24,518 nucleotides of DNA, from IMG/VR virus record IMGVR_UViG_3300046455_000333, positions 1 to 24,518 of that record; one strand, given 5' to 3'. A model generated the notes under the pieces. It was given only the letters and a program-made list of their open reading frames with translations. It was not told the DNA's origin and made no database searches. Below, in pieces: positions 8,493 to 16,739 of this stretch. Every line of letters starts with the position of its first letter. Positions within the stretch are counted from its first letter, which is position 1. The DNA is from a virus. Made by a program: the position numbers and the translations under genes.

Positions 8493-10175
8493 TTACGCCT
8501 CCGCGGTGATGGCCTGGTGCTCGGCGCGGTCGTCGGCGCGGTGGCCGATCGGCTCCGGTTCCGGGTCCCACACTGGTACGGGCACGGCGTACGCCTCGGT
8601 CGACTCGGCACTCGGCCCCGTGCCCTTGGGGTACGCCCACACTCCGCGGATGAGCTCGCGCAGCATGTTGCGGCGGGTGGCTACGGGAGTGATGTCCCAC
8701 CGCTCGACCAGGCCGCGCATCACGGGTACGAGTGCGGCGCGGTCGACGTCCTGCTCGTCGGCCTGGTGCTCGTCGAGCTCGGCAAGCTGCCGCGTGTTGG
8801 CGAGCTGGTCGGCCGTGAGCCGGTCGCGCTCGCGGATGTATGAGTCCTCGGGGATGATCCCCCGTCCGACCAGACTCGTTTGCCGGTCGAGCTCGGCCTC
8901 GATCTCCGCGAGCCTGTCGCGCAACAACTGCTTGGCACGGGCGGCACGGTCGGCTGCGGCGCCGGCCTTCTCGGTCCGCTCGGCCTGGTGCGGGATGGAT
9001 GCGGCCTCGGCCTCGATCTCGTCGGCCCACTCGGCGAGCCGGTCGACGACGGCCTGTTCGGCGACGGTCCGCCGGATGTATACGCCGTCGCACGTGGCGC
9101 TGTCCTTGTGCTCACTGCATCGGAAGACGTATCCGTTCTTGCGGATGAGCACTCCCCCGGCGCCGCGCGTCGAGCTGCCACCGATCGAGCAGGCGCCGCC
9201 GCAGCGTGCGCACCGCACAAGCCACGACAGGGCGTACGCGGGTGTCTGGCTGCGCGGCCTGCTGGCGGCCTCTTTGCGGCGCCGCTGGTACGCCTCCCAC
9301 ACGTCCTCGGGGAGGGTGACCTCCTGTGATCCGGGGAGCCAGATGCGGCGCATGCATTTGGCGGCGCGGTGACTCGGCTCCTCCGGGTCCGCTGGCGGAC
9401 AGTCGCAGTCCTCGGGGTGGGTGCGGATGAATCCGGCCGCGAACCCCGAGTCGAGGTAGCGGGTGAGACCGGTCTGTTTCCAGGGCTTCCCGCGGGTGCC
9501 GAGATAGCCCTCGCGGCCGAGCCACTGGCAGGCGGAGTTCATCGGCTCGCCGTCGGCGACGCGTCCGTACACGTTGGTGACGACCAGGCCGAGCGTCTCG
9601 TCGGGGGTGTAGAGCTCGGGGTGAAGGGTGCCGTCCTCGTCGAGGCGGCGGCGGTGCCACACGTACCCCCACCGTTGGCCGCCGGTGGCGGGCAGGCCTC
9701 GGGCGAGGCGGTTCTCGCGGGTCTCCTGCCACTGCTCGCCGATCCGGTCCGACTCGAACTCGGCGAACTTGAACGCCATTCCCTGTTGGAGCCGGCCGAA
9801 CGCTGTGCGGGTGTCGGCGGCCTCGGTCGCGGACTCCAGTCGTCCCCCGGCGTGTTCGAGGCGGGCGAGGTTGAGCGCGTTGCCGTGGCGACTGCGGCCG
9901 AAGCGGCTGTATCGCCACACGGCGATGCCCCGGGCCTCTTTGTCCTCGACCCTCTTGAGCGCGCTCATGATCTTGCGTTTGAAGTTGCGGCCGGTCTGGT
10001 CGAGGTCTTCGACCCAGTCGATGATCCGTTTGTTGTTGCGCTCGGCCCACGCTGTGATCGCGGCGCGCTGGATGTCCGGGCTGATCTTGTCTTCGTAGTA
10101 GGTGCTGACGCGGATGTAACCGACAAACGGCTCGCGCAGAGGGCGCGAGCCGGTGAACGTCGTTGGTTGGGTCAC
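8493..10175 (-). CDS. int: Large serine recombinase, phage integrase
   Basis: A 560-residue protein from GTG (10175-10173). Residues 17-150 are the resolvase catalytic domain: GYIRVST with nucleophile Ser24, DLDQTGRN (57-64), and VWRYSRFGRS (86-95) with the conserved arginines. A recombinase domain follows (about 165-300). A zinc ribbon has Cys322, Cys325, Cys353 and Cys362. A long coiled coil (about 395-460) then controls synapsis. An insert around 253-275 (HPEDCDCPP...KCMRR) adds three more cysteines. The protein would integrate phage DNA at an attB site, without host factors. Its start overlaps the stop of the membrane protein gene upstream, so both are translated from the repressor operon. 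The candidate attP lies 15 bases past its stop. Confidence 0.95.
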   Translation of the reverse strand: MTQPTTFTGSRPLREPFVGYIRVSTYYEDKISPDIQRAAITAWAERNNKRIIDWVEDLDQTGRNFKRKIMSALKRVEDKEARGIAVWRYSRFGRSRHGNALNLARLEHAGGRLESATEAADTRTAFGRLQQGMAFKFAEFESDRIGEQWQETRENRLARGLPATGGQRWGYVWHRRRLDEDGTLHPELYTPDETLGLVVTNVYGRVADGEPMNSACQWLGREGYLGTRGKPWKQTGLTRYLDSGFAAGFIRTHPEDCDCPPADPEEPSHRAAKCMRRIWLPGSQEVTLPEDVWEAYQRRRKEAASRPRSQTPAYALSWLVRCARCGGACSIGGSSTRGAGGVLIRKNGYVFRCSEHKDSATCDGVYIRRTVAEQAVVDRLAEWADEIEAEAASIPHQAERTEKAGAAADRAARAKQLLRDRLAEIEAELDRQTSLVGRGIIPEDSYIRERDRLTADQLANTRQLAELDEHQADEQDVDRAALVPVMRGLVERWDITPVATRRNMLRELIRGVWAYPKGTGPSAESTEAYAVPVPVWDPEPEPIGHRADDRAEHQAITAEA

Positions 10176-10542: not shown

Positions 10543-10986
10543 TCAGTGTTCCGCGGTGCGTTGTTCGTCTTCTGGTGGTGGGTTGCGCTGGAGTGTCTGC
10601 GTCATGGCGAGGAACAGCCGGCGTTGCTGCGCGTCGGTGATGCCGAGCTCGTCAGCGGCCTGATCGGGCGTGATGCGGCGCCCGCCGGCGGGCGGGGTGT
10701 TTACGGCGGACAGTTCGCTCGGGTTGAGGATTCCCGCGCGGACGAGTACCTCGCCGAGGGAGATATGAAGCGCTTCGGCGAGCTGCGCGAGCACTTGGGT
10801 ATTCGTGGCGCCTTGACCGGAGAGGATGCGACTGATGGTCGCGCGTCCGATGCCGGATTCTTCGGCGAAGCGGCTTTGTCCGCCGCCTCGGATGCCGAGG
10901 TCATACCCGCGGCTCTCTAGCTGCTGGCGGAGCCACAGCGCGAAGCTTGCGCGCGCCTGCTCGTCGGTGGGGGAAGTACGTTCCAT
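10543..10986 (-). CDS. XRE-family HTH repressor, probable lysogeny repressor
   Basis: A 147-residue protein from ATG (10986-10984). Residues 14-85 are an XRE/Cro-CI helix-turn-helix domain: QSRFAEESGIGRATISRILS (37-56) carries the recognition helix, followed by LAQLAEALHISLGEVLVRAG. The C-terminal part (about 95-147) is short and has no LexA-type peptidase motif, so this is not a self-cleaving repressor. The start codon lies inside the palindrome GTTCCATGGATGGAAC (10980-10995). A -10-like TATGTT (complement of 10993-10998) ends 7 bases before the ATG, so the mRNA may be leaderless and autoregulated. The divergent gene at 11282 is Cro-like. It heads an operon with the membrane protein and integrase. 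Confidence 0.88.
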   Translation of the reverse strand: MERTSPTDEQARASFALWLRQQLESRGYDLGIRGGGQSRFAEESGIGRATISRILSGQGATNTQVLAQLAEALHISLGEVLVRAGILNPSELSAVNTPPAGGRRITPDQAADELGITDAQQRRLFLAMTQTLQRNPPPEDEQRTAEH

Positions 10987-15141: not shown

Positions 15142-16056
15142 GTGACCCTCGACGCGTACGACTGGACGTGGCGATACGCCCGCTCACGCGGTAACGCGCG
15201 CCTCGCCGTCCTCGCCGTCGCGGACAAGACCACCGGCCCCGACGCAACCGCACGCCTCGGCCTCGCCGAGACACAGCGCCGCCTCGGAGGAGTGGGCAAG
15301 GGCGTAGCCGTCAAGGCCCTCGCCGACGCCGTCGCATCGGGCGATCTGGAGATCAGCGAACCCGCCAAGGGCAGCCGTGCCGTCCTGTACCGCATCCCCG
15401 GAGCCGTCGACTACGACCGCCGTACCGGTCCGGAATCCGGACCACAAACGGCCACCGCGGACCGGTCCGGAATCCGGACCACTACCGGTTACCGGTCCGG
15501 CAGCCAGACCAGTAAGGCCGTCCCTAGTGGTCCGGAATCCGGACCGGTAGCCGAGGGGCCCGACGACGGTTTGTGGTCCGTAATCCGGACCGCTAGTGGT
15601 CCGGAATCCGGACCACATCACCCACCCATAGATAGAAAGAGTGAAGGAGTGAGGGAGGGAGCGCCCGCGCTCGACCTCGCCGCCGGAGGAATCCCTCCGT
15701 TCGCTCGCCCCCTGGTCGACCAGATCACCGCGGCCGAGGTCTACGTCGGATGGGACCTCACGCCGAACGAGTGGCTCCGCCTCGACGCGATGCTCCGCCG
15801 CTCCGGTGCCGACATGCTCGCCCGGCACGCCGTCACCCTCGCCGCCCGCCAGGCCGTCAGCTCGGCCCGGTACTTCCTGCGGGCGTGGACGTCGCTCCCG
15901 CCGGCCCCGACCGAGGGCACCGTCGCCGCGACCCCCGTCGCCGGGCCCGCCGGGAACGTGATCCCCCTCGACCGCACCCAGCCCCGCAAGGGCCGCGCTG
16001 CACAGTCCGTCGACCACCTCGCCGCCGCTCTCGCCGCCATGGAGGCCCAGCAGTGA
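15142..16056 (+). CDS. Replication initiator with N-terminal winged helix; origin iterons within the gene
   Basis: A 304-residue protein from GTG 15142. Residues about 18-88 form a winged helix-turn-helix (ARLAVLAVADKTT, LAETQRRLGGVGKGVAVKALADAVASGDLEI, SRAVLYRI), as in phage replisome organisers of lambda O/DnaD type. Residues about 96-158 are low-complexity sequence encoded by six copies of a 17-bp palindrome. The same repeat is read in different frames (GPESGP in three copies, SGIRT or VIRT in others), so the DNA and not the peptide is conserved. Residues 185-304 hold a helical C-terminal region that may contact the loader or helicase. The gene sits 4 bases before the probable loader gene, with a GTGA overlap. 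Confidence 0.75.
   Translation: MTLDAYDWTWRYARSRGNARLAVLAVADKTTGPDATARLGLAETQRRLGGVGKGVAVKALADAVASGDLEISEPAKGSRAVLYRIPGAVDYDRRTGPESGPQTATADRSGIRTTTGYRSGSQTSKAVPSGPESGPVAEGPDDGLWSVIRTASGPESGPHHPPIDRKSEGVREGAPALDLAAGGIPPFARPLVDQITAAEVYVGWDLTPNEWLRLDAMLRRSGADMLARHAVTLAARQAVSSARYFLRAWTSLPPAPTEGTVAATPVAGPAGNVIPLDRTQPRKGRAAQSVDHLAAALAAMEAQQ
15427..15614. repeat. Iteron array, probable replication origin
   Basis: Perfect copies of GGTCCGGAATCCGGACC lie at 15427-15443, 15464-15480, 15529-15545 and 15598-15614. Variant copies lie at 15494-15510 (three changes) and 15575-15591 (one change). Each is a palindrome with 8-bp arms around one base. Several are flanked by TAGT or ACTA, extending the symmetry. 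Start-to-start spacing is 37, 30, 35, 46 and 23. An A-rich stretch (about 15628-15650, CATAGATAGAAAGAGTGAAG), the least GC-rich part of the gene, follows and could be the unwinding element. The layout is lambda-like, with the origin inside the initiator gene. Confidence 0.75.
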
Positions 16057-16739
16057 TCCCCCGCGAAGTCGCCGCCCTGCTCGCGTACGTCGTCCGCCTC
16101 GACCCGCGCCTCGCCCTCGACGACCAGGCCGCCGCCGCCGAGCGCCTCGCCCAGTGGGCCGACCTGCTCTCAGACGTTCCTGCCCAGGCTCACGGATGGG
16201 ACGCCGCCCGCGTCGCCCGCGATTACATCGCCCGCAACCCGTACCGCATCCAGCCGTCCGACGTGTCCCGTCCGTGGCACGCCCACAAGGCCGACCAACT
16301 ACGCCGCCACGTCGGCACGTTCGAGCCGACCGCACACCCGCGCCTCGACCCCGACGACGTCGAGGGATACCGCCGCGCCCTCGCCGCCGAGCGCCTCGCC
16401 ATCGCGACCGGCGACCAGGCCCCGACCACGCACCGCGCCATCACCGCAGGACCGGCCGCCGCCGAAGTCGAGCGCCGCCTCGCCGAGCTCGGCACGTACA
16501 TGCCCCGCACCATCGCCCAGGCCCTCGCCGACTACCGACCCCGCCGCGCCCAGCGCGAGGAGCTCGCCACGGCCGGCCGAACCGACCCGCTGAACGTGCA
16601 GTGCCCGCACGAGCACTGCCGCGCCCCCAAGGGCGACCCGTGCCGCAACAGACACCGCGTTCCCCGCCCCAAGGCCCACCCGTCCCGCCTCGACGCCGCC
16701 CAGGCCGCCGAGAACTCCCGACAGGAGACCGCCGCATGA
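16053..16739 (+). CDS. Probable replication accessory protein (helicase-loader-like) with C-terminal zinc finger
   Basis: A 228-residue protein from GTG 16053, overlapping the initiator stop by 4 bases. Residues 1-90 are helical (VAALLAYVVRLDPRLALDDQAAAAERLAQWADLLSDVPAQA, then AARVARDYIARNPYRIQPSDV), a pattern often seen in proteins next to phage initiators. Residues about 190-222 hold a zinc motif (CPHEHCRAPKGDPCRNRHR, then HPSR) of the type common in actinophage DNA-binding proteins. Position directly after an initiator carrying iterons suggests a lambda-P-like role, loading the replicative helicase. No ATPase motif is visible, so a DnaC/DnaI-type AAA+ loader is excluded. Confidence 0.6.
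   Translation: MIPREVAALLAYVVRLDPRLALDDQAAAAERLAQWADLLSDVPAQAHGWDAARVARDYIARNPYRIQPSDVSRPWHAHKADQLRRHVGTFEPTAHPRLDPDDVEGYRRALAAERLAIATGDQAPTTHRAITAGPAAAEVERRLAELGTYMPRTIAQALADYRPRRAQREELATAGRTDPLNVQCPHEHCRAPKGDPCRNRHRVPRPKAHPSRLDAAQAAENSRQETAA

Follow-up and report, generated by a model that had tools for sequence, protein, structure and literature searches.

A palindromic iteron array inside the initiator gene of Streptomyces phages is a probable theta replication origin

Introduction

Why should a phage gene carry, in the middle of its coding sequence, six copies of a 17-bp palindrome? The gene in question is part of a stretch of viral DNA, 24,518 nucleotides in length (IMG/VR virus record IMGVR_UViG_3300046455_000333, positions 1 to 24,518), that is referred to here as the window. 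An initial annotation, made from the letters of the window, proposed that the repeats form a replication origin inside the gene for its own initiator, as in phage lambda. The analysis described below largely supports that proposal. The window also encodes a serine integrase and a Cro/C1-type repressor (8493-10175 and 10543-10986, minus strand) and is, for this reason, assigned to a temperate phage. The gene order of the window resembles that of phage SV1.

Results

Six iterons are located within 188 bases of one open reading frame

The iteron unit, GGTCCGGAATCCGGACC, is a 17-bp palindrome with an 8+1+8 layout. Perfect copies are found at positions 15427-15443 (iteron 1), 15464-15480 (iteron 2), 15529-15545 (iteron 4) and 15598-15614 (iteron 6); no strand is assigned to any of the six sites. 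Iteron 5 (15575-15591) has one mismatch to this sequence and is positioned 23 bp from iteron 6. Iteron 3 (15494-15510) is the most degenerate, with three mismatches, and its counterpart in two relatives (L027 and L112) has one. Our recount thus agrees with the initial annotation, which gave four perfect and two variant palindromes in 188 bases. The entire array (15427-15614) falls within the ORF at 15142-16056. Elsewhere in the 24.5 kb window there are no sites with three or fewer mismatches to the unit (chance expectation 0.21), and the array count was never matched by shuffles (0/100). The codon phases of the six iterons are 0, 1, 1, 0, 1 and 0. Hence, two frames are used and the peptides encoded by the iterons differ (GPESGP versus SGIRT or VIRT), as had been noted on first reading.

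Related initiator genes contain the same kind of array

A search with an alignment of the winged-helix domain (see below) yielded 19 bacterial and 80 viral loci. At least four 17-bp palindromes, and usually six, were present in 86 of the 97 non-redundant initiator ORFs. In most loci the array starts at ORF nucleotide 282-309. Certain spacings recur (37/30/35/46/23, 36/30/24/46/23, 34/33/35/22/23 and 17/17/23/22/23) and the final spacing is 23 bp in 65 of 86 homologs, as it is in the window. The spacings have no consistent helical phase; only the last, of 22-23 bp, stands out. The iterons of the homologs are read in two or three frames. Arrays were also recovered, in 93 homologs, using a repeat finder that is blind to symmetry. 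The median copy number was 6, compared with 2 in codon-shuffled ORFs, and the mean net symmetry of the repeats was 5.6, compared with 1.9.

The iteron letters vary among phages, and both arms change together so that the site is still symmetric. The classes are GGTCC..GGACC, GGGCC..GGCCC, GGCCC..GGGCC, GCCCC..GGGGC and GGTAC..GTACC. When the window was compared with eight relatives, iteron positions were approximately 2-5 times less diverged than the spacers (for example, 3% versus 14%, and 9% versus 49%). The initial annotation had suggested looking for the 17-mer at the corresponding position in related phage genomes. Arrays of this kind are indeed found there in SV1, Picard, Eklok, ToastyFinz and SoJo, and in viral and bacterial contigs. 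For the complete SV1, Eklok and ToastyFinz genomes, clustered iterons are confined to the initiator gene and there are no families of scattered copies; SV1 and Eklok each have one isolated match, with three mismatches, outside of this gene. No homolog of the winged helix was found in the plasmid collection.

Some sites depart from the general pattern. The Eklok iteron, GGTCGGGAATCCCGGAC (L036, 4273-4461), is not fully symmetric; one arm is seemingly shifted by one base, and this is so in four identical copies. In L134 and L136 the iterons (GGTCGGCTCACCCGACC) have symmetric arms with a different centre, and residue 57 of the recognition helix is Thr. Single, isolated, exact copies of the 17-mer occur in L009 (5461-5477) and L024 (2968-2984), with no array in the stretch covered.

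The array separates a winged helix from a C-terminal domain

The ORF at 15142-16056 (plus strand) encodes a protein of 304 amino acids. Its assignment as a replication initiator is based on a PHROG match, on homologs in Streptomyces phages and on an AlphaFold2 model. The best PHROG match is phrog_6643, 'replication initiation protein' (E 4e-40). No Pfam family was matched at E below 0.03, the lambda O families of Pfam and PHROG gave no match, and PF06970 (RepA_N) was absent among Pfam matches at E<=1. Homologs are encoded by the Streptomyces phages SV1, Picard, Mojorita, ToastyFinz, SoJo, Tubberson and Eklok. In these phages the neighbouring genes are one for an annealing protein on one side (annotated as ERF or RecT in several cases) and one for SSB on the other. 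One depositor annotated a homolog as a RepA-like initiator and the gene after it as a helicase loader.

The AlphaFold2 model, built on 37 sequences, has a confident winged helix at residues 3-84 (pLDDT mostly 83-95, element order HHEHHEE), which agrees with the N-terminal winged helix named in the initial annotation. Residues 98-175 are disordered and residues 186-249 form a helical C-terminal domain. The N-terminal domain (residues 1-84; 15142-15393, plus strand) is common to all loci that carry an array. Within it, the recognition helix (residues 53-66; 15298-15339, plus strand) was placed using the model and the residue-base co-variation described below, and includes V57 (codon 15310-15312, plus strand). 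In the model, the disordered stretch is the part of the protein encoded by array DNA. With such a linker, the amino acids could change while the DNA is conserved.

A Foldseek search of the PDB with the model gave no significant match. The RepA_N N-domain structures 4PQL and 4PT7 are among the winged-helix fold matches (Z 7.0-7.2, VIA-align), a score that unrelated winged helices equal. Among the relatives, L058 has a significant PF13730 (HTH_36) match (E 6e-11), and L083 and L046 score E-values of 0.016 and 0.051; the window initiator itself has no such match.

An A-rich segment and a predicted helicase loader follow the array

Immediately downstream of the array is an A-rich run, CATAGATAGAAAGAGTGAAGGAG. 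On the basis of AT and A content past the array across homologs, we designate positions 15615-15655 (plus strand) a candidate DNA unwinding element. Averaged over 85 loci, the first 30 bp past the array are 48% AT and 35% A, against a background of 28% AT, a modest and short enrichment. In 66 of the 85 loci, the 40-mer with the highest AT content in the ORF begins no earlier than 10 bp before the end of the array and no later than 80 bp after it, and the peptides encoded by the A-rich segment differ among loci. The A-rich stretch reported in the initial annotation is therefore present in the window and recurs in homologs. Cumulative GC skew, calculated for SV1, Eklok, ToastyFinz and the window, does not switch at the array and is evidence neither way.

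The next gene (16053-16739, plus strand; phrog_8924) encodes a protein with an N-terminal helical domain, similar to G39P and lambda P, and a C-terminal zinc finger (PF24623). The model is mostly helical and the first 73 residues resemble SPP1 gp39. Alignment with gp39 (1NO1) gave a Z of 9.8 over 66/67 residues with an rmsd of 1.5. Alignment with lambda P, in the DnaB-P complex (9OA1), gave a Z of 8.6, and the next unrelated row scored 3.4. Values this high are possible by chance for small helical domains, yet the top two rows are both phage helicase loaders. The ORF is predicted, from its modelled fold, to encode a helicase loader of the SPP1 G39P or lambda P type; a loader-like gene was also what the initial annotation placed here. 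Among relatives, the gene after the initiator is loader-like, or encodes an IstB/DnaC-like ATPase or DnaB, in all 84 loci whose sequence extends that far and in 71 of another 72, the 'loader-like' label of more distant relatives being derived from BLAST to representatives rather than from structures.

Recognition helix residues co-vary with iteron bases

We compared the winged-helix alignment with the half-site consensus of each array, weighting sequences at 80% identity. The top residue-base pair was V57, in the recognition helix, and iteron base 3 (APC-corrected MI 0.449; runner-up 0.245). The identities follow a simple rule. With R or K at residue 57, base 3 is G; with V, I, L or T it is T; with Q or E it is C. 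This holds for 77 of 84 loci. The window is of the Val type, SV1 of the Arg type and L071 of the Gln type. When weighting was done at 65% identity, which leaves only 7 clusters, the pair lost its lead in the corrected ranking. Hence, a test with independent pairs is the better control. Base 3 differed in 9 of 9 phylogenetically independent pairs that differ in residue-57 class, with both members obeying the rule in 6 of the 9. Conversely, base 3 differed in 1 of 17 control pairs of the same class (Fisher p about 3e-6).

For an out-of-sample search we used 393 Streptomyces genomes, 88 of which had a match. The rule was correct in 56 of 58 new arrays; 50 of these have Arg and a single clade contributed most of them. 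When old and new arrays were pooled (142; effective number 63), residue 57 with base 3 ranked first, residue 54 with base 4 second and residue 53 with base 2 fifth. Because the recognition helix co-varies with the letters of the iteron, these comparisons argue strongly, if indirectly, for symmetric binding of the array by the initiator itself.

The homologs in the 88 Streptomyces genomes (L163-L238; for example L165, L188 and L186) mostly belong to the Arg57 clade. Here, the half-sites are GTGCCGG or GGGTCGG, many of the proteins have a longer linker, and a loader-like gene adjoins. Three other loci (L103, L105 and L106) encode Arg57, yet their half-site pools contain equal A and G at base 3 (GGACCGGAATCCGGCCC). 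To judge from these sites, the three initiators may tolerate an asymmetric target.

The array travels with the winged helix

BLAST shows clear homology between the window's winged helix and its counterparts in L083, L046, L093, L123 and others, with E-values of 1e-11 to 1e-29 in most comparisons. For the C-terminal domains, similarity was undetectable by pairwise BLAST in several of the same comparisons. The array travels with the N-terminal winged helix; the C-terminal domains do not. Single-linkage clustering of the C-terminal domains merged nearly everything, probably via chimeras, and was replaced by the pairwise comparisons.

Phages Raleigh and Darolandstone have the C-terminal domain alone in common with the family. 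At the N-terminus they carry another domain, and the gene region equivalent to the array contains a different short repeat, of the GCGAATCGTC type. The initiator genes of Darolandstone (L041, 3401-4351) and Raleigh (L042, 3398-4348) are annotated 'mucin-2', and the next gene, in the loader position, is annotated 'cell surface glycoprotein'. Both names look like annotation errors.

Discussion

The locus has the layout of an intragenic origin. Repeated sites are located inside the initiator ORF, between the DNA-binding and C-terminal domains, an A-rich segment flanks them, and a gene for a helicase loader or helicase is adjacent. The locus is best read as a theta origin of the type known from lambda O, SPP1 gp38 or RepA_N. 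We put at almost nine in ten the probability that, within a phage theta replication origin lying inside the initiator gene, the array is the part bound by the initiator. Initiator dimers would bind each 17-bp palindrome by means of the N-terminal winged helix, with one recognition helix per half-site. Several bound dimers may then form a complex, similar to the O-some, and so open the A-rich DNA that directly follows the array on its 3′ side. Delivery of host DnaB would fall to the C-terminal domain together with the loader encoded by the next gene. Some relatives encode a DnaB of their own at the loader position.

Dimeric winged-helix proteins bound to palindromes are typical of repressors, and MarR- and Fur-type regulators are among the fold neighbours of the initiator. 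The array might, on these grounds, be an intragenic operator with which a winged-helix regulator represses or times its own operon, with replication starting elsewhere. We consider this improbable. The six sites are some 290-470 nt inside the ORF, rather than at a promoter, and are followed by an A-rich segment; the PHROG match is an initiator, and a helicase loader, DnaC-like ATPase or DnaB is encoded next in nearly all loci. A regulatory use of these sites is nonetheless conceivable. Repeat arrays can also be centromeres or pac sites. However, the iteron letters track the recognition helix encoded by the array's own gene and no further protein is needed, which makes a partition, packaging or recombination site for another phage or host protein less probable still. 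The palindromes are GC-rich, could fold as RNA stem-loops in the initiator transcript, and change in ways that preserve pairing. We rejected this reading as very unlikely; A.C mismatches outnumber G.U mismatches on the coding strand (272 versus 114), which is the opposite of selection for RNA pairing, and an RNA model leaves residue-base co-variation unexplained. Despite the recurrence of GPESGP in several copies, a protein-level repeat or mobile palindromic element with no role for the DNA can practically be dismissed, given iterons read in two or three frames, a predicted disordered product, iteron DNA that is kept while spacers change, and no scattered copy families in three complete genomes.

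The preferred reading, an intragenic theta origin, has close precedents. The lambda origin consists of four imperfect inverted-repeat iterons of 17-19 bp, in different phases, at nucleotides 348-432 of the 900 in gene O. O binds each iteron as a dimer, and additional iterons lengthen the O protein (PMC7466680). The layout claimed in the initial annotation is thus that of lambda: iterons in several phases in the middle of the initiator gene, then an A-rich segment, then a loader gene. The same note held palindromic iterons to be unusual. Since those of lambda are inverted repeats bound by O dimers, this is contradicted, and such sites are not unusual for origins of this kind. The window differs from lambda in having six GC-rich and perfectly symmetric iterons with wider, uneven spacing, and in its Streptomyces hosts. 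In SPP1, oriL is within gene 38, so that repeats and an AT-rich DUE are inside the initiator gene, with gp39 as the loader and gp40 as a DnaB-type helicase (PMC6316719). The location of the origin is shared with the window, and the window loader model matches gp39. Conversely, the SPP1 repeats are described as direct, there is a second origin (oriR), and homology between the initiators was not detected.

In the RepA_N plasmid pSK41, the boxes bound by the N-terminal winged helix of Rep are located midway along the rep gene itself, and the protein segment that ori encodes is a linker that can be dispensed with; the C-terminal domain varies, is host-specific and is reported to bind DnaG primase (PMC5703833). 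The winged helix, sites within the gene, linker encoded by ori and variable C-terminal domain are all shared features. However, the window initiator has no RepA_N Pfam match, and RepA_N plasmids are from Firmicutes. For pPR9 Rep, the N-domain and origin have been swapped jointly for a phage-like HTH_36 module (PMC5703833). A Nocardiopsis relative (L058) has a PF13730 winged helix together with six palindromes, although the window protein falls short of PF13730. Lastly, RepA of mycobacteriophages Miko and Rachaly is an HTH initiator with an origin proposed just upstream of, or inside, its gene (PMC7157519). This resembles the window in being an actinobacteriophage initiator with an HTH and a proposed origin at or in the gene. 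It differs in that the authors saw no repeats in the region examined, and in the extrachromosomal state of the prophages (PMC7157519). By analogy, the origin would work as the lambda and SPP1 origins do, with an initiator from a family of its own. We use that label because the layout fits lambda, SPP1 and RepA_N but the initiator is in neither the O nor the RepA_N Pfam families.

More tentatively, and at slightly short of even odds, the winged helix and iterons could together be one portable initiator-origin cassette that recombination has joined to several C-terminal domains, unrelated to one another, and to three kinds of helicase partner. A simple code, pairing residue 57 with base 3, residue 54 with base 4 and perhaps residue 53 with base 2, would underlie the diversification of specificity, so that the replication compatibility of phages might be read from sequence alone.

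In the literature searched we found no description of such origins in Streptomyces phages, and the Samy prophage paper has no phage-origin data. The kind of origin is already known; the initiator family and the residue-base rule appear to be undescribed in that literature. Our analysis locates a likely replication origin for a set of phages and prophages of Streptomyces in which we found no published one. Each gene encodes a DNA-binding domain and also contains the sites for it, so that the co-evolution of protein and DNA is naturally recorded in the family; about 140 pairs of initiator and sites yield a rule, linking residue to base, by which new cases are predicted. This makes it possible to test the specificity of initiators, the compatibility of phages and the exchange of origin modules, and could provide compact origins for Streptomyces vectors.
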